From a virus, in IMG/VR virus record IMGVR_UViG_3300042465_004049, positions 1 to 59,567 of that record: a DNA stretch of 59,567 bases. One strand, 5' to 3'. Made by a program: the position numbers and the translations under genes. The notes under the pieces are model-generated. The model was not told the DNA's origin. It saw nothing but the letters and a program-made list of their open reading frames with translations, and searched no databases. This document shows positions 19,072 through 35,982 of this stretch, piece by piece; the stretch's first letter is position 1, and the number at the start of each line of letters is the position of its first letter.

Positions 19072-20567
19072 TGATATATTCCTCCTGAGTTTGACGTTAA
19101 TTCTCCTTTCATTTTTCTATGAGAGAACCCGTGTATTTTTTCAAAGTTATCACCAATGACATGAATCATATTTTTTCTTTTCTTAAAATTAATAGATTCA
19201 TCTTTTAAAATGATTTCTTCGATGTATTGTTTAAAATTTGTTCCTTTTTGAAATGCTCTTTTTTCCTGGTCTAAAATCTCATCAGGCAGTTTACCTCTGA
19301 ATGCATTAGCAAGTGGTAATTTCCATTGACCTCCTTTAGATAAGTATTCATCGGTTAAATTAGTAGTATAGTTTAAAAATTCGGTATCAAAGAATGGGCA
19401 TCTTAATTCGATTGTTCCATAATTCATAAAGATAGTATTACCTCTTAATAGGTTACCATAGTATTGTTTTTCAAATAACTTTTTACGAACATCACTCCAA
19501 TCTGGTTTCTTACTGAACATACGGAATGTACCATACGAACCATAGGATTCATCAGAACCCTCACCACTAAATGCTACCTTAATACCATCTCTTGCCATTT
19601 GTTCTGCAATAAAGGATTGTAGGATACCCACTTCCATTTGAACGGTCGATGGATATTCGATTACTCTAATTGAATCTAAAAATCTTTGTTTAATTATTTC
19701 TTCATCTTTAGGAACAAATACTTCAACTAACTCCACTCCTAAATACTCCGCACATACTCTTGCCTTTTGTAAATCCTTTGAGGTTTCATCAAATGCAATT
19801 GTGTATGCTTTTAGGTTTGGTATACGTTGTGATAGTAGGTAGGTAATGATTGCAGAATCAATCCCACCACTTAGTGATGTAGCAATTGGTACATCTGATA
19901 ATAATCTTTTATCTACTGCAGTTTCTAATAACTTAAATGTAGTTTCACCAACTTCTTCATGTGATGCCGGTATAGTAGGTTCGTTTGAGAATTGAAAATA
20001 ATAATCTTTATGAACTACAATCGTATCAGTATTTAAATCAATTTCTACCAATGAATTCTTAGGTACAAACTTAATATCTGAACTCTTTACCTGTGTTGTA
20101 ATGGATTTCAATTCACTAGCGATGATATAGTTGTTTGTATTGTGAATATAAAGGGGCAATTTACCCACCCAGTCCCTCGATAGTATCAACTTATCATTAT
20201 CGTATATAATGAATGAGAACATACCCTCTAATCTCTTTAATTCACCTTCCTTGTAAAGATATAGAATAATTTCTGAATCTGAATTAGATTTAAAGTGATA
20301 CCCCCTTCCTTCGTATTCTTTACGCAATTGAGGATAGTTCCAAATCTCACCATTGACTACCAATTCAACTCCATCCCATTCCATAGGTTGATTACCCAAT
20401 GGTGAAGTATCGTTGATTGATAATCGGTTATGTCCTAAGATAATATGTTTATCGTTATATTGGAATTCTTTAATACCACGATTATCTCTACCACGATGCT
20501 CAATTGCTTCGAGCATTACATTCACATCATCTCTTTTATATCCAATCGTTGCTACAATTCCACACAT
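19062..20567 (-). CDS. asnB: Asparagine synthase (glutamine-hydrolysing)-like amidotransferase
   Basis: 501 aa (E. coli AsnB 554). MCGIVATIGY starts with the catalytic Cys2 of the Ntn glutaminase; GHNRLSIND, VNGEIWNY and SNSDSEIILYLY are the glutamine-binding residues. The synthetase domain has ATSLSGGIDSAIITYLL, a PP-loop (SGGIDS, 233-238), and FSGEGSDESYGSY. The family transfers ammonia to an AMP-activated carboxylate. In cells it makes asparagine; relatives amidate sugars or secondary metabolites. In a phage next to PLP and TS-like enzymes it could serve base modification (inference). Confidence 0.88.
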   Translation of the reverse strand: MCGIVATIGYKRDDVNVMLEAIEHRGRDNRGIKEFQYNDKHIILGHNRLSINDTSPLGNQPMEWDGVELVVNGEIWNYPQLRKEYEGRGYHFKSNSDSEIILYLYKEGELKRLEGMFSFIIYDNDKLILSRDWVGKLPLYIHNTNNYIIASELKSITTQVKSSDIKFVPKNSLVEIDLNTDTIVVHKDYYFQFSNEPTIPASHEEVGETTFKLLETAVDKRLLSDVPIATSLSGGIDSAIITYLLSQRIPNLKAYTIAFDETSKDLQKARVCAEYLGVELVEVFVPKDEEIIKQRFLDSIRVIEYPSTVQMEVGILQSFIAEQMARDGIKVAFSGEGSDESYGSYGTFRMFSKKPDWSDVRKKLFEKQYYGNLLRGNTIFMNYGTIELRCPFFDTEFLNYTTNLTDEYLSKGGQWKLPLANAFRGKLPDEILDQEKRAFQKGTNFKQYIEEIILKDESINFKKRKNMIHVIGDNFEKIHGFSHRKMKGELTSNSGGIYQWI

Positions 20568-20572
20568 ATTAT

Positions 20573-20995
20573 TTATTTTATATCAGCTTCTACGTCTTTT
20601 AAATTCATTTCTATCATTTTCAACTCATCATTTAACCAATCATATTTTCCAAATGCTATATCCTTTATCTTTGCATTGATTTCCCAACGTTGAATAATAT
20701 CTCCTACTACATTTAATTCTAATAATTGAAACGAAATTGTATTAGTTTGTTTAGATTTATTTTCTGCTAATCCCTTGCAAATAATTGAAGCAATTGGAAT
20801 TTCTGAAGTTTCATACATCTCAATTGTTAAATCACCCCAATTTACCCACCCATCATCATAAACACAAACTACTTTTAATTCACTCATTTTATGGACCGCA
20901 TATGTTGGGATAACAAATGGGGAATTAAATTCAATTAAAAATCTATTTACTTTTTGTGGTTCAAATGCTACGAACTCTTGTTGTTCTTTTTTCAT
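20573..20995 (-). CDS. Tail-tube-like small protein (gp19-related), 140 aa
   Basis: Weak but ordered similarity to the tail-tube protein at 56733: VNRFLIEFNSPFVIPTYAV against NRFIMEIAGIPSYLIKAG, then WGDLTIEMYE against WQDLEITLYD, and WEINAKIKDIAFGKYDWLND against WKLKGAFILNAQFGELDWTS. This pattern (NRF, W-x-L-x-I-x-x-Y, FG-x-x-D-W) is the gp19/tube fold. It is encoded between the TS-like and AsnB-like genes, far from the tail block. It may be a minor tube or baseplate protein, or a protein that lost its virion role. Starts in TAAATAATATG without SD. Confidence 0.55.
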   Translation of the reverse strand: MKKEQQEFVAFEPQKVNRFLIEFNSPFVIPTYAVHKMSELKVVCVYDDGWVNWGDLTIEMYETSEIPIASIICKGLAENKSKQTNTISFQLLELNVVGDIIQRWEINAKIKDIAFGKYDWLNDELKMIEMNLKDVEADIK

Positions 20996-21701: not shown

Positions 21702-22922
21702 TTATTTTATTTTTTTCCAAATCCAAATGGGTTCACCAAATGCATTATTTTTATTGAGTTCTGTTTTTTCTTTGAGTTCTTCTGCAAAATATTCAGATTT
21801 AGCATTTCCTGCACCGCCGGAATTAAACCTTTTTGTCATTTCCATTCCAATACAACCCATATATTCTAATCCCTCTGATTTAATAAAGTCATTCATAGCA
21901 TTTACAATATCAACATACCCCTTATCTGGTGCTGAAAATACATCTGCAATATTAACTGCTAATAACCCACCCTTCTTTAAGGTAGGGATTATTTTTTTAA
22001 TTGTTTTATGTAGGAAATTGGTATTCCAATCATCTATCTTTTTATAGCGTAAATAACTTTGAGTATCATGTGTGGAATACTTTTCAGTATTGAAGTATGG
22101 AGGTGAAGTGAAGATTGTATCAAAAAAGTTTTCATATTTGGAATAATCCACATCTTCTGCCGGTAACTTTATCAGTTCCACAGTTTTAGGATTCTCAAAA
22201 AACGTTTTGTGTTTCTGATAAAATTCTATTTGGTTTTCATAATTTGGGTGATTATCTAAATTAGGGTCTATACCAACATAATGTTTACCCGTTTCACTTG
22301 CAAAGAATCCACATAATCTATCTCCCCAACCTGCTGAAAAATCTAATATATTCTCACTTTGGAATCTATCATAAAATGCTTTAGCAATTACAGGTTTGAA
22401 TTGTGATGCCACATACTTTCGTAATGTAGTTGCCATCTTTAGTGTTTCCTTATTTACATCAGTTAGGACTTGTTCTAATGTGAAGAATGCCCGAACTATG
22501 GTTTTTATACCATTAACTGTCTGCCATGTCTTCCAACCTGATGGTGTTCTTGACCAATCTACCTTCCATCGATTTTCTATATGGAATGGGTTGGATGCGT
22601 TATTACCAACATTCGTTCTTTTAAAGTAATAATTACTACTATCAAATGTAAGTGGATATGCAGATTCCCTTTCATTACGCGGAAACCATTCTCCCTCCAC
22701 TAAAATATCCGGCCACCAAGTACCCTTTAACTTTTTATATGCATCAATCGTTTCTTGTTCTGTAATAATAGGAATAGGTGGTGGATAAGTATGTAATACT
22801 TCTGATAATGTTTCTACTATCTCTTCCTTTTCAAATGTATTTAGTATATGTTTCCACTCCTCCTTATCAATATTGATATAGGGGGTCATTCCATAAAACT
22901 TTTTGAAATATTCTTTTATCAT
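21702..22922 (-). CDS. DNA methyltransferase with SPPYFN motif (paralogue 2)
   Basis: 406 aa from the ATG at 22922, chosen because MIKEYFKKFYGMTPYI aligns with the start of the neighbour (MYIEYFDKFYGMTPYL); a longer reading to 23030 would overlap that gene by 104 nt. LDFSAGWGDRLCGFFASETG followed by HYVGIDPNLDN is the SAM motif; TIFTSPPYFNTEKYS is motif IV; LLAVNIADVF follows. It is a tandem duplicate of the 22927-24159 gene (N-terminus, motifs and C-terminus align throughout). Both would modify phage DNA, possibly with different target sites. Confidence 0.82.
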   Translation of the reverse strand: MIKEYFKKFYGMTPYINIDKEEWKHILNTFEKEEIVETLSEVLHTYPPPIPIITEQETIDAYKKLKGTWWPDILVEGEWFPRNERESAYPLTFDSSNYYFKRTNVGNNASNPFHIENRWKVDWSRTPSGWKTWQTVNGIKTIVRAFFTLEQVLTDVNKETLKMATTLRKYVASQFKPVIAKAFYDRFQSENILDFSAGWGDRLCGFFASETGKHYVGIDPNLDNHPNYENQIEFYQKHKTFFENPKTVELIKLPAEDVDYSKYENFFDTIFTSPPYFNTEKYSTHDTQSYLRYKKIDDWNTNFLHKTIKKIIPTLKKGGLLAVNIADVFSAPDKGYVDIVNAMNDFIKSEGLEYMGCIGMEMTKRFNSGGAGNAKSEYFAEELKEKTELNKNNAFGEPIWIWKKIK

Positions 22923-22926
22923 TAAA

Positions 22927-24159
22927 TTACATTTTCCTAAATACCCATACCGGTTCGCAGAAAGTTTTACCGGCATTTTCAATTGCCTTTTGCTTTTCTT
23001 CTTCGGAATATCGGTCTTCATCTCCCTCAATCATTGCACCTGCTCCAATTGAACCTGGCCTCTTAGCCATTTCCATACCTAAACATCCTTGATACTCTGC
23101 ACCTTCTAATGTGGAAATAAAATCGTTCATTGGGTTAGTGATTTCCTGTTGACCTTTGCCATCACCCTTTGAGGATGCATATACATCTGCGATATTAACT
23201 GCTAGATACCCACCCTTACGGATAGTAGGCCATACTTTTTCAATCGTTGCATGTAAGAATAATTTATTCCATGCATCAATATTTTTATATCGAATCCAAC
23301 TTTGAGTATCATCATATGAATATCTCTCTACGTTGAAATATGGTGGCGAACTGAATACAATATCAAAGTAATCGGTATACTCACTATAATCCATATCCTC
23401 TGCGGGAGAACAATGAAAGGTTGCCCTCTTATCAGTTTCAAAAAAACCATTATTCTTTTTATAGAATTCGGCTTGTTTTTCGTATATTGGATGATTTTCT
23501 TTACGCGGGTCAATACCTACATAATGCTCACCATATTCTGATGCGAAAAATCCACATAATCTATCACCCCATCCAGCAGAAATATCTAATACATTCTTTG
23601 CTTGAACGAAATCATAAAGTGCCTTTGCTACGTTTGGTTTGAACTGAGAACAAATATACTTTCTTAAAGATAGACAAGTTCTTAGGGTATTTTTACTAAC
23701 CTCATCAAATTTTAGGGTATACATTCCACCGATTAGTGAAAACATAAAATCAGGGTTATTCCAAGTACGGAATGGGCCAGGCGATACTGTCCCATCTACG
23801 CTCCATCTATTTGCTTGTTGAAAATGATTCGATGCCCCATTACCAGTATTCAGCCTTCTTACATATTGTTGTTTACCTTGAAATCCTAATGGATAACGGG
23901 TTTCAGATGCCTTACGAGGAAACCACTCACCTTCGGTTAGAAGTTCGTGATAACGAGTTCCTTTTAATTTAAGATACTCTTTTCTTGCATCCTCTTCAGA
24001 AATATCTGCATATGGTAATTCATATGTCATACATACTTTGGCAAGAGATTCCTTAACGTCTTCTCTTTGGTATGTTTTTTTAATGTGAGACCACTCTTCC
24101 TTACCGATATAAAGATATGGTGTCATACCATAAAATTTATCAAAATACTCTATATACAT
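22927..24159 (-). CDS. DNA methyltransferase with SPPYFN motif (paralogue 3)
   Basis: 410 aa. LDISAGWGDRLCGFFASEYG then HYVGIDPRKEN is motif I; IVFSSPPYFNVERYSYDDTQ is motif IV; YLAVNIADVY follows. The stop is 5 nt before the paralogue at 21702-22922. A promoter (24194-24225) lies 35 nt upstream and probably drives both methyltransferases, the TS-like, tube-like, AsnB-like and PLP genes, since no terminator is seen between them. Confidence 0.85.
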   Translation of the reverse strand: MYIEYFDKFYGMTPYLYIGKEEWSHIKKTYQREDVKESLAKVCMTYELPYADISEEDARKEYLKLKGTRYHELLTEGEWFPRKASETRYPLGFQGKQQYVRRLNTGNGASNHFQQANRWSVDGTVSPGPFRTWNNPDFMFSLIGGMYTLKFDEVSKNTLRTCLSLRKYICSQFKPNVAKALYDFVQAKNVLDISAGWGDRLCGFFASEYGEHYVGIDPRKENHPIYEKQAEFYKKNNGFFETDKRATFHCSPAEDMDYSEYTDYFDIVFSSPPYFNVERYSYDDTQSWIRYKNIDAWNKLFLHATIEKVWPTIRKGGYLAVNIADVYASSKGDGKGQQEITNPMNDFISTLEGAEYQGCLGMEMAKRPGSIGAGAMIEGDEDRYSEEEKQKAIENAGKTFCEPVWVFRKM

Positions 24160-24193
24160 AACCTTTTATTATTTTATTCAGTTTATATTTTAT

Positions 24194-24225
24194 CAAAGAT
24201 ACGAAAAATATTCCGTATTTCCAAA
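24194..24225 (-). promoter_or_regulatory. Promoter, TTTGG-N19-TATCTTTG
   Basis: Coding-strand TTTGG (24225-24221), 19-nt spacer AAATACGGAATATTTTTCG, then TATCTTTG (24201-24194), a perfect TAnnTTTG. The spacer and -7 box contain ATACG ... CGTAT inverted arms. It stands before the tandem methyltransferase genes. Confidence 0.8.
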
Positions 24226-24411
24226 TCAAATGTGTGTCCACGTTTGACGTTTTACAATTTCTGAAATATTCCACTTACTAACTTTAAAGTTTCTTGCTAT
24301 AACATTAACTGAAAACCCTTTCTTAAAAAGGTCTCTTATTGATATAACTTGCTCGTTTGTTAGTTTAGCCTTAGGATGATTTTCCCCTCGTCTATTATTG
24401 GATACATTCAT
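24226..24411 (-). CDS. Small helix-turn-helix protein, HNH-endonuclease C-terminal-like
   Basis: 61 aa: NHPKAKLTNEQVISIRDLF continuing KKGFSVNVIARNFKVSKWN then ISEIVKRQTWTHI. This is the short HTH seen at the C-terminus of phage HNH homing endonucleases (KLTeeqV..Ir.l...G.s...iA..f.Vs...I..I..g..W.hV). No HNH part is present. It overlaps the thioredoxin gene by 17 nt. It may be a remnant of a homing endonuclease or an independent small DNA-binding protein. Confidence 0.6.
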   Translation of the reverse strand: MNVSNNRRGENHPKAKLTNEQVISIRDLFKKGFSVNVIARNFKVSKWNISEIVKRQTWTHI

Positions 24412-26472: not shown

Positions 26473-27486
26473 TTAAAATAAGTCATCCCAATTCTCACCC
26501 TCACCTGCTTTTGAATAATCAGTAGGTCTCATTGCGAAGAAATCCGTATGAGTTAAACCTCCAGTTAGGTGATAGAACCAATCCAATTCAGCTGCTTTCT
26601 TTTTATTGAATTCAAAATAATCATCACCGCCAGGCATTGGATTGTATCCTAACTCTGCAAGTTTCTCATTAATTCGTTTAATAATAAAGTGTTTTAGGTC
26701 ATCTTTTTTCATATTCTCTAAATCACCCTGTTCAAACATCTTATCAATAAATCTATGTTCTAATTCCATTATTAGTTTTGCTGCTTCATAAATTGATACT
26801 TTAGCATCTTCTAATAATTCTGGAAATTCATCACACATATGTCTGAATAATTGACATCCCATTCTACTATGTAGGGATTCATCTCTTACACTCCACTTCA
26901 TTTGTTGTCCAATTCCTTTTAATTTATTTCTCATTTGGAATGAGTAAAGAACTGCAAATGATGAATAAAGGGATACACCCTCTGAAAATGCTGAGAATAT
27001 TGCTAAACTTCTACCAACTTCTTTTCTTGCAATTGGGTTTGTTGCCAAATCCTCATGTGTCCAATCCGAAGTAGTTTTTGTTAATAATTCAAACTTTTCT
27101 GCAATTGCAGGTTCGTGTAAAAATGCTTCAAAATCATCTAATCCTAAAGTTTCATTTAGATACGAATATGCAATTGCGTGAATTGTTTCTTGAGAACCAA
27201 ACATCATTGCCATCTGACGGATTTCATGTTTTGGAAACCATTGGGTAACCATATTAGTCCAATAATCAGATACGGCACACTCAGTCTGAGCAAATCCTAA
27301 AAGGATGTTACCTACTAAATTCTTTTCAGAATCAGTTAGAGTTTCATTCCAATCCTTAATATCACCTTGCATTGGGATTTCGGTATGTAACCAAAATGCC
27401 TGTGCTTGTTTTAACCATCCCTCAGTATAATATATCGGAAATTCAAAAGGTTTGAATGGAATTCTTTCAGTAAATAGTTTGCTCAT
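26473..27486 (-). CDS. nrdB: Ribonucleotide reductase small subunit, class Ia
   Basis: 337 aa. Metal ligands are visible: FAQTECAV (D/E84 position), SQETIHAIAYSYLNE (E and H plus Tyr four residues after His, the radical tyrosine), FSEGVSLYSSF (E) and VRDESLHSRM (E and H). The C-terminal WDDLF is the NrdA-binding tail. It generates the tyrosyl radical and passes it to NrdA. No intergenic promoter is seen between it and nrdA. Confidence 0.95.
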   Translation of the reverse strand: MSKLFTERIPFKPFEFPIYYTEGWLKQAQAFWLHTEIPMQGDIKDWNETLTDSEKNLVGNILLGFAQTECAVSDYWTNMVTQWFPKHEIRQMAMMFGSQETIHAIAYSYLNETLGLDDFEAFLHEPAIAEKFELLTKTTSDWTHEDLATNPIARKEVGRSLAIFSAFSEGVSLYSSFAVLYSFQMRNKLKGIGQQMKWSVRDESLHSRMGCQLFRHMCDEFPELLEDAKVSIYEAAKLIMELEHRFIDKMFEQGDLENMKKDDLKHFIIKRINEKLAELGYNPMPGGDDYFEFNKKKAAELDWFYHLTGGLTHTDFFAMRPTDYSKAGEGENWDDLF

Positions 27487-27804: not shown

Positions 27805-27836
27805 AAAAAGCTAACCCCTTTATTATAATAGGGTTA
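27805..27836 (-). terminator. Probable rho-independent terminator after the methyltransferase cassette
   Basis: Coding-strand TAACCC and GGGTTA arms (27836-27831 and 27817-27812) followed by GCTTTTTG. It lies just behind the left copy of the 40-bp duplication, where the helicase/methyltransferase transcript should end. Confidence 0.5.
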
Positions 27837-27837
27837 C

Positions 27838-27877
27838 CCCATATTTTCTACATACTTTTTATGCAGAAGTTGTTTTT
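27838..27877 (-). repeat. 40-bp direct repeat, left copy (vestigial helicase 3' end)
   Basis: Forty consecutive bases are identical to 28991-29030. On the coding strand the copy reads as the last codons of the helicase (QLLHKKYVENMG) and, like the right copy, ends in TAA just outside the identical block. It starts within the stop codon of the methyltransferase gene. With one further mismatch the identity extends about 4 bases. Confidence 0.9.
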
Positions 27878-28983
27878 TACTCAAAAAATTGATTTATTTT
27901 TTCTTTCACTTCCGGTTTCACTTCTACACGGTTTCCTTTTATTGGTTTGCTAACCGGTCTGTTTTTTTCATATTCAATTCTTGTTTTCGAAATTTCAAAG
28001 TATTCTTTTTCTCTTTCAATACCAATAAAATCAAAACCACCTCTAATTGCTGCTTTACCAGTACTTCCACTTCCCATAAACGGGTCTAATATCGTTCCAT
28101 CGTTTTTAGTAACCAAACGAATAAGGTATAGCATCAAATCCGTTGGTTTGACAGTCGGGTGTGTGTTATTACTTCCTTCGTTTCTATCACTCTTTGATGT
28201 TTTAGGACAGTAGAAAAATCTACTAGCACCACCAACATCTCCCAATCCACCTAAATTTGCAGCTTTAACATCTAATGCATAGTTTCCATATTTACCGTTT
28301 TTGCCCAATTCTCCCATTGATTTATCCCCACTACCTCCTGGTGATTTTGATACTCCACTTTGTTCATCCAATAACCTACCTGCTTCTTCATCAAAGATTA
28401 CATTTGCTGGAAATCTGCCTATTGTATCTGCTATGTTAGCGTTACTACTATCATAACCATCATCTAATCCTGTCAATGAGGGTCTACCATTTGCTTTTGA
28501 TTTATAATCACCATTAAGTTCAATCCTGCAACCATCTATGTTTATCCCACCAGTTCCCCATTCTAAAACATTCTCTGCTACTGTGCTTTCACTCAAAGGT
28601 TTTCTTGCCATTACAATAGGTTCATGTGCCGGTTTAAGAGCAGTTCCCCAACCTTGCCATTCTTCTAACTTATGTCCTATGTTATGTGATTTAGGAAACC
28701 CTGAACCATATATCCACATAATCTGGTCTCTAATCTCAAACCCTGCATCTTCAATTCTTACAGCCATTCTGTGATAAGTTCTACTACCCGCGAATGAAAG
28801 GATATGACCTCCTGGTTTTAGAACACGAAGGCATTCTTCCCATATCTGCTGTGATGGAACATCATAATCCCAGTGTTTGCCCATAAATGCAAGTCCATAT
28901 GGCGGGTCAGTAACAATACTATCCACCGAATTATCATCTAATTCTTTAAGTTTATCTAAACAATCTCCTAGTAATAATTTCAT
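27877..28983 (-). CDS. DNA methyltransferase with DPPY motif (N6-adenine type, beta order)
   Basis: 368 aa. LLLGDCLDKL, then SIVTDPPYGLAFMGKHWDYD (motif IV DPPY about residue 25), LRVLKPGGHIL, and near the C-terminus THPTVKPTDLM and DPFMGSGSTGKAAIRGG (SAM motif I FxGxGxT) plus FIGIERE. This motif order is that of beta-class N6A/N4C methylases. It is not related to the three SPPY enzymes. Its ATG is 3 nt behind the helicase stop and the gene is bracketed by the 40-bp duplication, so it appears to have been inserted as a cassette. Confidence 0.92.
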   Translation of the reverse strand: MKLLLGDCLDKLKELDDNSVDSIVTDPPYGLAFMGKHWDYDVPSQQIWEECLRVLKPGGHILSFAGSRTYHRMAVRIEDAGFEIRDQIMWIYGSGFPKSHNIGHKLEEWQGWGTALKPAHEPIVMARKPLSESTVAENVLEWGTGGINIDGCRIELNGDYKSKANGRPSLTGLDDGYDSSNANIADTIGRFPANVIFDEEAGRLLDEQSGVSKSPGGSGDKSMGELGKNGKYGNYALDVKAANLGGLGDVGGASRFFYCPKTSKSDRNEGSNNTHPTVKPTDLMLYLIRLVTKNDGTILDPFMGSGSTGKAAIRGGFDFIGIEREKEYFEISKTRIEYEKNRPVSKPIKGNRVEVKPEVKEKINQFFE

Positions 28984-28986
28984 AAC

Positions 28987-30348
28987 TTATCCCATATTTT
29001 CTACATACTTTTTATGCAGAAGTTGTTTTTGAACCATTTGTCCATTGTTAGATTCCTTTGAAGCAATGATTCCATCAGCGGAAGCTGCATCATATACTTC
29101 AATAAATCCTGTGTTTGTATCCATCTTACAAGGAAATGTAATTCCATCTGGTCCGAATCGGTTTTTCATAATGTGAGCCCTTGCAGTGTTATTCAATTTG
29201 TCTTTTGATTTTCTACTCCAACTCATAATGAAATCCGCATTCATAACCTTTGCATATGAATCTGCAATCTTATCTGCTTCAATTACATCTGAATCTATCG
29301 CAGAACGATTTGTTTGAGAAGCAGTCCATATTGGAATTCTCAATTCACCACCCATACCTCTAAGGTCAATGTAAACACCACCTTGTTCGGCATAAGTTGA
29401 ATCCGTTTTATTTGAATGGGAAAGAAGTAAATCTGCGTAATCCACAATAATCAGGTCAGGTCGGTTTCCGGCTGCAATCATTTTTTCAATATGCATTTGC
29501 AACTTCTTAACACTTACCCCCTTCGGTGGATAATATTTAATAAGTAATTTTCCTTTTAATCCTTTGATTTTTGCTTTAACATCCTCTTTTCTATCTCTCA
29601 AATCTGCAGATGGGATATGAGTAAAGACTGTATCGTATCTTGCACCTACATAGTGTTCTGATAACTCCATTGTATAATGAACTACACTTAATCCTGCTTT
29701 AACTGCCGATGCACCTAATGCGGTTAAAATCCATGTCTTACCAACACCAGATGGTGCAACTACTACTCCTAATTCTCCTGGTCCTAATCCTCCATCCATT
29801 AAATCAGTAATGGGTTTCCAATCAGTTGGGACGGTATCTCTCTTTTCATCAGTTGAACGTGCATCAAAATCTAAAACATAATCATGTCCTAAATCGTTTT
29901 CAACTCCAACCTTCATTGCCCTATCTACGAGGTCTTTGATTTTATCGTAACTTCCTGCCTTTAATAAATCTACTGATTGTAGAATTACTTGTTTTAAGTT
30001 TTGATTTTTACAAAAGGATGTAAATTCCGTTTTAATGTAGGCTAAATCAGTTACGTTACCTACTTGTGTGTAGATATGGCGTAATTGTTCTACAATCGTT
30101 GTTTGTAATCCTTTGTTATCTAATTTCGATAAACTTACTTTGAAAGCATCCATTGTGGGTGCTTGTCTATATTCAGTATGATAGTTAACAATTTCACTAA
30201 CTATCCATTTGTTCGCATCCGATTCAAAAAATTTGGGTGTAACAATTTCTGATATTTGGTCTAAGAATTTATTATCGGTTAATAATGCAGATACAACTTT
30301 AGATTGGAAAGACTGTCCGTATTTCGATAAGTTGTCTATATCTTGCAT
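28987..30348 (-). CDS. 41: Replicative DNA helicase (DnaB family, T4 gp41-like)
   Basis: 453 aa (T4 gp41 475). An N-terminal helical domain (to about 150) precedes the RecA core: GELGVVVAPSGVGKT (Walker A, 198-205), RPDLIIVDYADLLLS (Walker B), SQTNRSAIDS (DnaB Q-loop/H3-like) and MKNRFGPDGITFP near the end. Unwinds the fork for gp43. The last 13 codons are part of the 40-bp duplicated block. Start overlaps the preceding gene's stop (TAATG). Confidence 0.93.
   Translation of the reverse strand: MQDIDNLSKYGQSFQSKVVSALLTDNKFLDQISEIVTPKFFESDANKWIVSEIVNYHTEYRQAPTMDAFKVSLSKLDNKGLQTTIVEQLRHIYTQVGNVTDLAYIKTEFTSFCKNQNLKQVILQSVDLLKAGSYDKIKDLVDRAMKVGVENDLGHDYVLDFDARSTDEKRDTVPTDWKPITDLMDGGLGPGELGVVVAPSGVGKTWILTALGASAVKAGLSVVHYTMELSEHYVGARYDTVFTHIPSADLRDRKEDVKAKIKGLKGKLLIKYYPPKGVSVKKLQMHIEKMIAAGNRPDLIIVDYADLLLSHSNKTDSTYAEQGGVYIDLRGMGGELRIPIWTASQTNRSAIDSDVIEADKIADSYAKVMNADFIMSWSRKSKDKLNNTARAHIMKNRFGPDGITFPCKMDTNTGFIEVYDAASADGIIASKESNNGQMVQKQLLHKKYVENMG
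28991..29030 (-). repeat. 40-bp direct repeat, right copy (functional helicase 3' end)
   Basis: Identical to 27838-27877. Here it encodes the C-terminus of the helicase. The two copies bracket exactly the methyltransferase gene, 1,153 bp apart start to start. Confidence 0.9.
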
Positions 30349-35380: not shown

Positions 35381-35408
35381 ATTTTAAGTTTTATGTTTTA
35401 TTATTAAG

Positions 35409-35440
35409 CTAAGATACGATTATTATCTGATATATCCAAA
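35409..35440 (-). promoter_or_regulatory. Promoter, TTTGG-N19-TATCTTAG
   Basis: Coding-strand TTTGG (35440-35436), 19-nt spacer, TATCTTAG (35416-35409). It lies 29 nt upstream of the HNH-helicase start (35380). The -7 box ends in AG instead of TG, as at two other sites (44556 and 45242). Confidence 0.7.
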
Positions 35441-35451
35441 TATTCTATCGT

Positions 35452-35922: not shown

Positions 35923-35949
35923 TATAACCTTTATTTATTTTTATTAATT

Positions 35950-35981
35950 CAAAGATACGAATAATATTTCGTATTACCAAA
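35950..35981 (-). promoter_or_regulatory. Promoter, TTTGG-N19-TATCTTTG
   Basis: Coding-strand TTTGG (35981-35977), spacer TAATACGAAATATTATTCG, TATCTTTG (35957-35950). The spacer plus box contains the perfect 7-bp inverted repeat ATACGAA...TTCGTAT, the best palindrome of the set. Lies 28 nt upstream of the Nmad1-like gene. Confidence 0.8.
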
Positions 35982-35982
35982 T

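Follow-up and report, generated by a model that had tools for sequence, protein, structure and literature searches.

The locus raises the question of how a DNA methyltransferase (MTase) gene came to lie between two copies of the 3' end of a T4-like phage's own replicative helicase gene. The window, here the whole 59,567-nt stretch of viral DNA that was analysed, carries on its minus strand a DnaB-type helicase, the MTase, a short intergenic region with a hairpin and T-run, a small Hc1-like gene, an nrdB-like gene, and an nrdA-like gene, in that order. The features needed for the argument are as follows, with upstream and downstream given in the direction of transcription.

28987..30348, minus strand: DnaB-type replicative helicase (gp41-like), 453 aa, intact (Pfam DnaB_C 2.5e-16; PHROG 19 1.5e-76)
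28987..29030, minus strand: upstream repeat copy, 44 nt, made of the 41 last helicase coding bases and the stop
28987-28989, minus strand: helicase stop codon, at the helicase 3' end that is the putative insertion target
28984..28986, minus strand: GTT spacer of 3 nt between the helicase stop and the MTase ATG
27877..28983, minus strand: DNA amino-methyltransferase (N6_N4_Mtase), 368 aa, the gene read as inserted (Pfam PF01555 1.4e-36; PHROG 67 6e-80)
27834..27877, minus strand: downstream repeat copy, 44 nt, untranslated here, continuous with the old helicase 3' flank
27805..27837, minus strand: hairpin and T-run, GTAACCCTATTATAATAAAGGGGTTAGCTTTTT, directly 3' of the helicase in the empty sites of L002 and L007-L013
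27500..27670, minus strand: small Hc1-like gene, right edge of the hotspot (Pfam Hc1 6e-10)
26473..27486, minus strand: nrdB-like gene, right core neighbour of the hotspot, named from its conserved order beside nrdA; the ORF is kept in all relatives

The Helicase 3' End Is Duplicated Behind the Helicase Gene

A first-pass annotation of the window had described a 40-bp duplication of the helicase end bracketing the MTase, and this observation was confirmed. On the plus strand, positions 27838-27877 and 28991-29030 are the same exact 40-mer, CCCATATTTTCTACATACTTTTTATGCAGAAGTTGTTTTT, in the geometry that had been described: the downstream copy starts at 27877, the final base of the MTase stop TAA (27877-27879), and runs to a TAA, and the MTase ATG lies 3 nt behind the helicase stop. 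The repeat stretches to 44 nt with one mismatch (27834-27877 and 28987-29030; 43/44, 98%), which is the last coding base, GGA-TAA in the upstream copy versus GGG-TAA in the downstream copy, with Gly in both. The exact match stops at ..ATGGG, after which the upstream copy continues as ATAAGTT-ATG into the MTase start, whereas the downstream copy continues as GTAACCC into the old flank. No other exact direct repeat of at least 20 nt was found in the 59,567 bases, and exact inverted repeats of at least 20 nt were absent from the window. A chance origin of the 40-mer is ruled out by ten order-1 Markov simulations of window length, in which the longest repeats were 15-18 nt. Within the 44 nt, an inverted repeat (TTCTGCATA/TATGTAGAA) folds well, with a z of about -3.2, and by eye it is lost in many relatives.

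The right junction is also present in L001, a contig non-identical to the window, and both copies are present in L003, which matches the window at 100% across 7,088 bases. The evidence for the left junction comes from the window and the identical L003, since the L001 contig ends inside the preceding methyltransferase (MT1) and stops short of that junction.

The helicase keeps its full protein despite the insertion. The MTase has motif IV (TDPPYG) ahead of a variable middle and a motif I-like DPFMGSGS behind it. Its ORF alone fills the insert (27877-28983), and with no restriction enzyme ORF there it is a solitary MTase. The fold of the hairpin at 27805..27837 was weak (-11.2 kcal/mol, z -1.45), and the hairpin was absent from the terminator scan listing of the window; together with its T-run it is likely to be a terminator. 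Because the MTase starts 3 nt behind the helicase and ahead of this old hairpin, it is probably co-transcribed with the helicase.

Close Relatives Carry One Copy and No Methyltransferase

All relatives used here are metagenomic contigs. Among cultivated phages there were no close relatives, the best helicase identities being 44% (a Microcystis phage) and 42% (Flavobacterium phages). A scan of IMG/VR with the 40-mer matched L003, L002, and L001, and the other cassettes ending in this 40-mer that the first-pass annotation had proposed to look for were not found in the viral contigs scanned. L002 is an empty site with one copy and no MTase. Its upstream flank matches the window's upstream copy, its downstream flank, with GGGGTAACCC, matches the flank of the window's downstream copy, and its single copy is the same as that downstream copy. 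The same state was found in G001, which contains L002, and in G002, G003, G004, and G006, which are 91-95% identical across 24-41 kb. Compared with these five long empty relatives, the window has an insertion of about 1.1 kb, and 42-44 nt of the empty site align twice. Further short relatives also have one copy, no MTase, and flanks fitting both outer sides of the insert. None of the relatives compared carried two repeat copies without the MTase, and the repeat is not a widespread element.

Because relatives with one copy and no MTase match both outer flanks, the MTase appears to be a recent insertion that duplicated its target. This agrees with the earlier suggestion of a gene inserted behind a conserved target whose end was recreated. 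The ancestral order shown by the comparison was helicase-hairpin-Hc1-nrdB with one 44-nt copy. Both copies in the window equal L002 at 40/40 core positions while the other empty relatives differ at one position or more, so the repeat is native sequence of the window phage, with the tail ATAAGTT alone donor-like. A carried foreign C-terminus was rejected, both copies being native. The final bases of the upstream copy (A-TAA, then GTT) are of the donor type, and the junction ATGGGATAAGTTATGAAATT at the GTT spacer is common to the MTase-carrying L023, L025, L124, and L197.

Among the relatives, the insertion is shared solely with L001 (right junction) and L003. L001 is the nearest to the window in nrdA and nrdB (99.0%, with 93.7-97.9% for the empty relatives), and the helicase tree places the window within a supported clade (100/98) that otherwise consists of empty relatives. 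With the right junction also in L001, no MTase in the others, and the window helicase grouped among the empties, the history is told most simply by a single recent gain in the common ancestor of the window and L001. If the gene were lost cleanly through the repeat, the resulting empty sequence would be the same, indistinguishable from a site that never gained the gene.

Gene Content Varies Between the Helicase and nrdB

Because loci entered the set through their similarity to the helicase and the MTase, the following counts do not represent frequencies in nature. Among 83 distinct helicase loci, 41 were empty and 34 were filled between the helicase and Hc1/nrdB; the rest were probably filled (3) or cut off (5). 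The filled or empty state switches at least 9 times on the tree. The contents of this hotspot are the present MTase family, single or as 2-3 genes in tandem, a second MTase family, and other genes, and a Mom-family gene (Pfam Mom 2.5e-52) often stands behind the MTases. Such a gene follows the MTases in L022, L023, L027, L124, L142, and L204 and is absent from the window.

The inserted genes start at the helicase stop or right behind it, and TAATG is a frequent form of this join. Phages whose helicases are only 55-87% identical to that of the window have the junction ATGGGRTAAGTTATGAAATT in common, as would fit repeated rounds of homologous exchange in the conserved 3' end of the helicase gene. 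Exchanges of this kind leave no duplication. When all 83 loci were tested for a duplicated helicase end, it was found in the window type and in L197 only, and the others were at or near shuffled controls. The idea that the repeat accompanies every MTase at the hotspot was rejected, since most MTases there have none.

HNH-type genes were also observed at this site. In L028 (6454-7029), such a gene (PHROG HNH endonuclease 5e-17) lies between the helicase and the MTase. In L014 and L021, the helicase reads beyond ..ENMG into a new leader, and by eye the next gene start is HNH-like with Cys pairs. L014 also has a partial KYVENLG repeat at the helicase end.

Other Variable Sites in the Window

Other indels among the near-identical phages had boundary overlaps of 13-46 nt, which were imperfect or consisted of gene-start motifs (CATATTATTTATTT), with no long exact duplications. 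At 20565-20993, genes are gained or lost between 14-18-nt repeats of the gene-start motif CATATTATTTATTT, a shorter kind of repeat-bounded exchange. Two adjacent related MTase-like genes at 21702-24159 correspond to a single one in G001, G004, and G006, as if the tandem had collapsed or had arisen by duplication. At 24182-24226, 35397-35441, and 35938-35982, upstream elements resemble one another in having TTTG and, at a distance of about 20 nt, TATCTTTG. We take these to resemble Bacteroidota promoters, presumably a hint to the host.

The Inserted Methyltransferase Is a Mosaic

Nucleotides 121-360 of the window MTase are 100% identical to L001, and nucleotides 421-600 are 100% identical to the second MTase (MT2) of L089. 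Nucleotides 841-1080 are 98-100% identical, and parts of the middle are unrelated. L089 and the window diverge at the MTase end, where the repeat starts. A donor with the exact right end of the window, TTTTTTGAGTAA, was not found, and the GTDB genomes contained one distant MT1 relative. Comparison of the window gene (27877-28983) with L001 and L089 showed that the 5' and 3' parts are near-identical and that the middles have been exchanged between phages, which suggests a change of sequence specificity.

Insertions of the Same Family With Duplicated Targets

Two further insertions with flanking repeats were found at the following positions.

L197:3959-4777: MT1 with its repeat copies
L089:4458-6500: MT1-MT2 cassette with its repeats

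In L197, whose helicase has 55% aa identity to that of the window, MT1 is flanked on both sides by the end of that phage's own helicase gene, in exact copies of 35 nt, which depart from the window's last 35 bases at 5 positions. The sequence behind copy 1 is ATAAGTTATG, just as in the window, and behind copy 2 it is TTAATGGTAAATTACG, the start of an older neighbour, a 351-aa MTase whose counterparts stand immediately behind the helicase in other relatives. Behind the MT1 stop, L197 reads TAAGGATTAAATAGAAATAAAACTACTACATAAAAAATATG, matching the MTase-Mom boundary of L023 (TAAGGGTTAAATGGAAATAAAACCAATACATAAGAATAC) until the Mom start resembles the helicase end. At its right junction, donor-like MT-Mom sequence, TAAGGRTTAAATRGAAATAAAAC, is joined to the helicase end with partial likeness (alignment to L023, score 30). 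In L086-L089, an MT1-MT2 pair directly beside groEL is bracketed by exact repeats of 54-56 nt, each a copy of the start (5' end) of a 63-aa gene. These four share their junctions and were counted as one event.

In the window, L197, and L086-L089, each duplication copies the recipient's own sequence. This makes three independent events of a single cassette family, whose duplications measure 35, 44, and 54-56 nt. An empty site in the same gene order was not found for L197 or L086-L089. Exact repeats of at least 22 nt were also collected from the 1.84 Mb of fetched loci, a set biased toward helicase and MTase, and the strongest others were mostly within paralogous MTases. In L155, a 48-nt exact repeat (1882-1929 and 2703-2750) comprises the 3' end of MTase A plus 12 nt; its second copy stands at the end of MTase B, whose own C-terminus it supplies. 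This MTase pair is a different one. L155 is a possible fourth case, to which shared C-termini of paralogues could contribute.

Proposed Mechanism and Alternative Explanations

We consider it likely that the MTase is a recent insertion whose long target duplication arose by donor-to-resident recombination, and the junctions suggest that short-homology recombination was probably the route in these phages. During mixed infection, recombination would lead from the resident helicase end, near ..ATGGG, onto a donor with a helicase-MTase arrangement (tail ATAAGTTATG), and the MTase cassette would be copied from this donor. A short match, some 44 nt upstream of where recombination had left, would lead back to the resident genome, so that the stretch between is duplicated. 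Because the helicase end is regenerated, the helicase would remain intact and the MTase would enter its transcript, with the old hairpin behind copy 2. The 44-nt direct repeat would permit precise loss of the MTase by recombination. The right junction of L197 gives the best view of the proposed re-entry, through short partial homology. In the window, the re-entry is less clear because the microhomology at the right junction (TTTTTTGAGTAA/AAAAC) is an A-run only.

Much the same footprint would result from template switching, from integration of a circle by one crossover, and from a staggered break. In a Campbell-type event, a circle with a helicase 3' end and the MTase cassette would have integrated by a single homologous crossover in the 44 nt, and the donor-like tail of copy 1 and the recipient tail of copy 2 are what such a crossover gives. 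However, neither a circular form nor a carrier plasmid was found, an earlier illegitimate join of an MTase end to a helicase end is still required, and the 5' part of copy 2 equals L002 without foreign bases. We regard this origin as unlikely. Because HNH-type genes sit at the helicase end in L028, L014, and L021, breaks at this position are possible, and a staggered double-strand break there, perhaps made by a homing endonuclease, might have been filled in around the cassette. The inserts of the window and of L197 contain no endonuclease gene, though, and homing endonucleases leave short staggers, while the lengths here are 35, 44, and 54-56 nt and the target in L086-L089 is another one; a break-driven origin seems quite improbable to us.

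The first-pass annotation had named site-specific integrative elements and recombination at a repeated end side by side, and recombination proved the better half of this proposal. A site-specific cassette with the helicase 3' end as attachment site could explain why two lineages regenerate the gene end precisely and share the 3' boundary ..ATGGG. It is nevertheless strongly disfavoured: the insert is an MTase only, with no integrase, repeat sequence and right end vary by insertion, the cassette also occurs in an unrelated sequence (L086-L089), and most MTases at the hotspot have no repeat. An assembly artefact, in which a chimera of empty and filled strains was joined at the 44-nt repeat, deserves thought because short-read assemblies can mis-join at repeats and L003, identical to the window, may share its source data. 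L001 has another MTase middle and the same right junction, which is underivable from the helicase copy itself, and a like structure is present in L197 and L086-L089; we give an artefact hardly any credence. A transposon or IS was rejected, with no transposase ORF and, among the inverted repeats listed, no pair at the insert ends.

To return to donor-to-resident recombination, repeat lengths and right ends vary among the insertions, as expected without a dedicated recombinase. More tentatively, the MTase family might act as a minimal mobile unit that leaves 35-56-nt target duplications at core gene ends through ectopic short homology and phage recombination, in a reversible manner. Such a unit might need no transposase, integrase, or endonuclease and might use conserved gene-end sequence as its homology.

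Comparison With Known Systems

The footprint is legible because filled and empty alleles exist in near-identical phages, the 44-nt duplication is native, and a donor-type tail marks one side; two further insertions of the same family carry the same mark, and in one of them short homology was probably used. The locus would thereby show how T4-like phages gain genes beside essential ones, and phage gene acquisition by short-homology recombination becomes testable in crosses.

According to a review of phages related to T4, which agents drive lateral transfer beside core genes is largely unknown and the junctions are usually without known signature; freestanding homing endonucleases, or intronless homing, are discussed as gene transfer agents (PMC2993671). 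The present case is similar in that accessory genes are added beside core replication genes by recombination, putatively in mixed infection, and differs in that the insert has no endonuclease and its junction bears a visible long duplication. In Allomyces atp6 and in Glomus atp6, atp9, cox2, and nad3, mobile endonuclease ORFs were reported to duplicate the C-terminal end of the gene (PMC3630166). There too, the inserted gene follows a gene end that reappears beyond it. Along with an endonuclease, those ORFs bring a C-terminus of foreign origin that has diverged (64-81% identity), whereas the window has native copies (43/44) around an insert free of any endonuclease.

The nearest likeness is to restriction-modification genes. 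In the passage citing Nobusato et al. 2000, PMC1643837 refers to their insertion with long target duplication in bacterial genomes, and PMC3031569 speaks of "long and variable target duplications". As in those insertions, the MTase lies in direct repeats of tens of bases with no transposase, the empty allele has a single copy (seen for the window only), and the repeat length is variable (35, 44, and 54-56 nt). Repeats of 35-56 nt are much longer than transposon target duplications. Unlike the restriction-modification cases, the present one concerns a T4-like phage, a solitary MTase, and the 3' end of a replicative helicase gene, and one junction (L197) suggests that homology was used. In a limited literature search on long target duplication and phage methyltransferases, the papers concerned bacterial or archaeal genomes, as judged by title and abstract. 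With the cases described here, long target duplication would take in methyltransferases of phages as well as the restriction-modification genes of bacteria.
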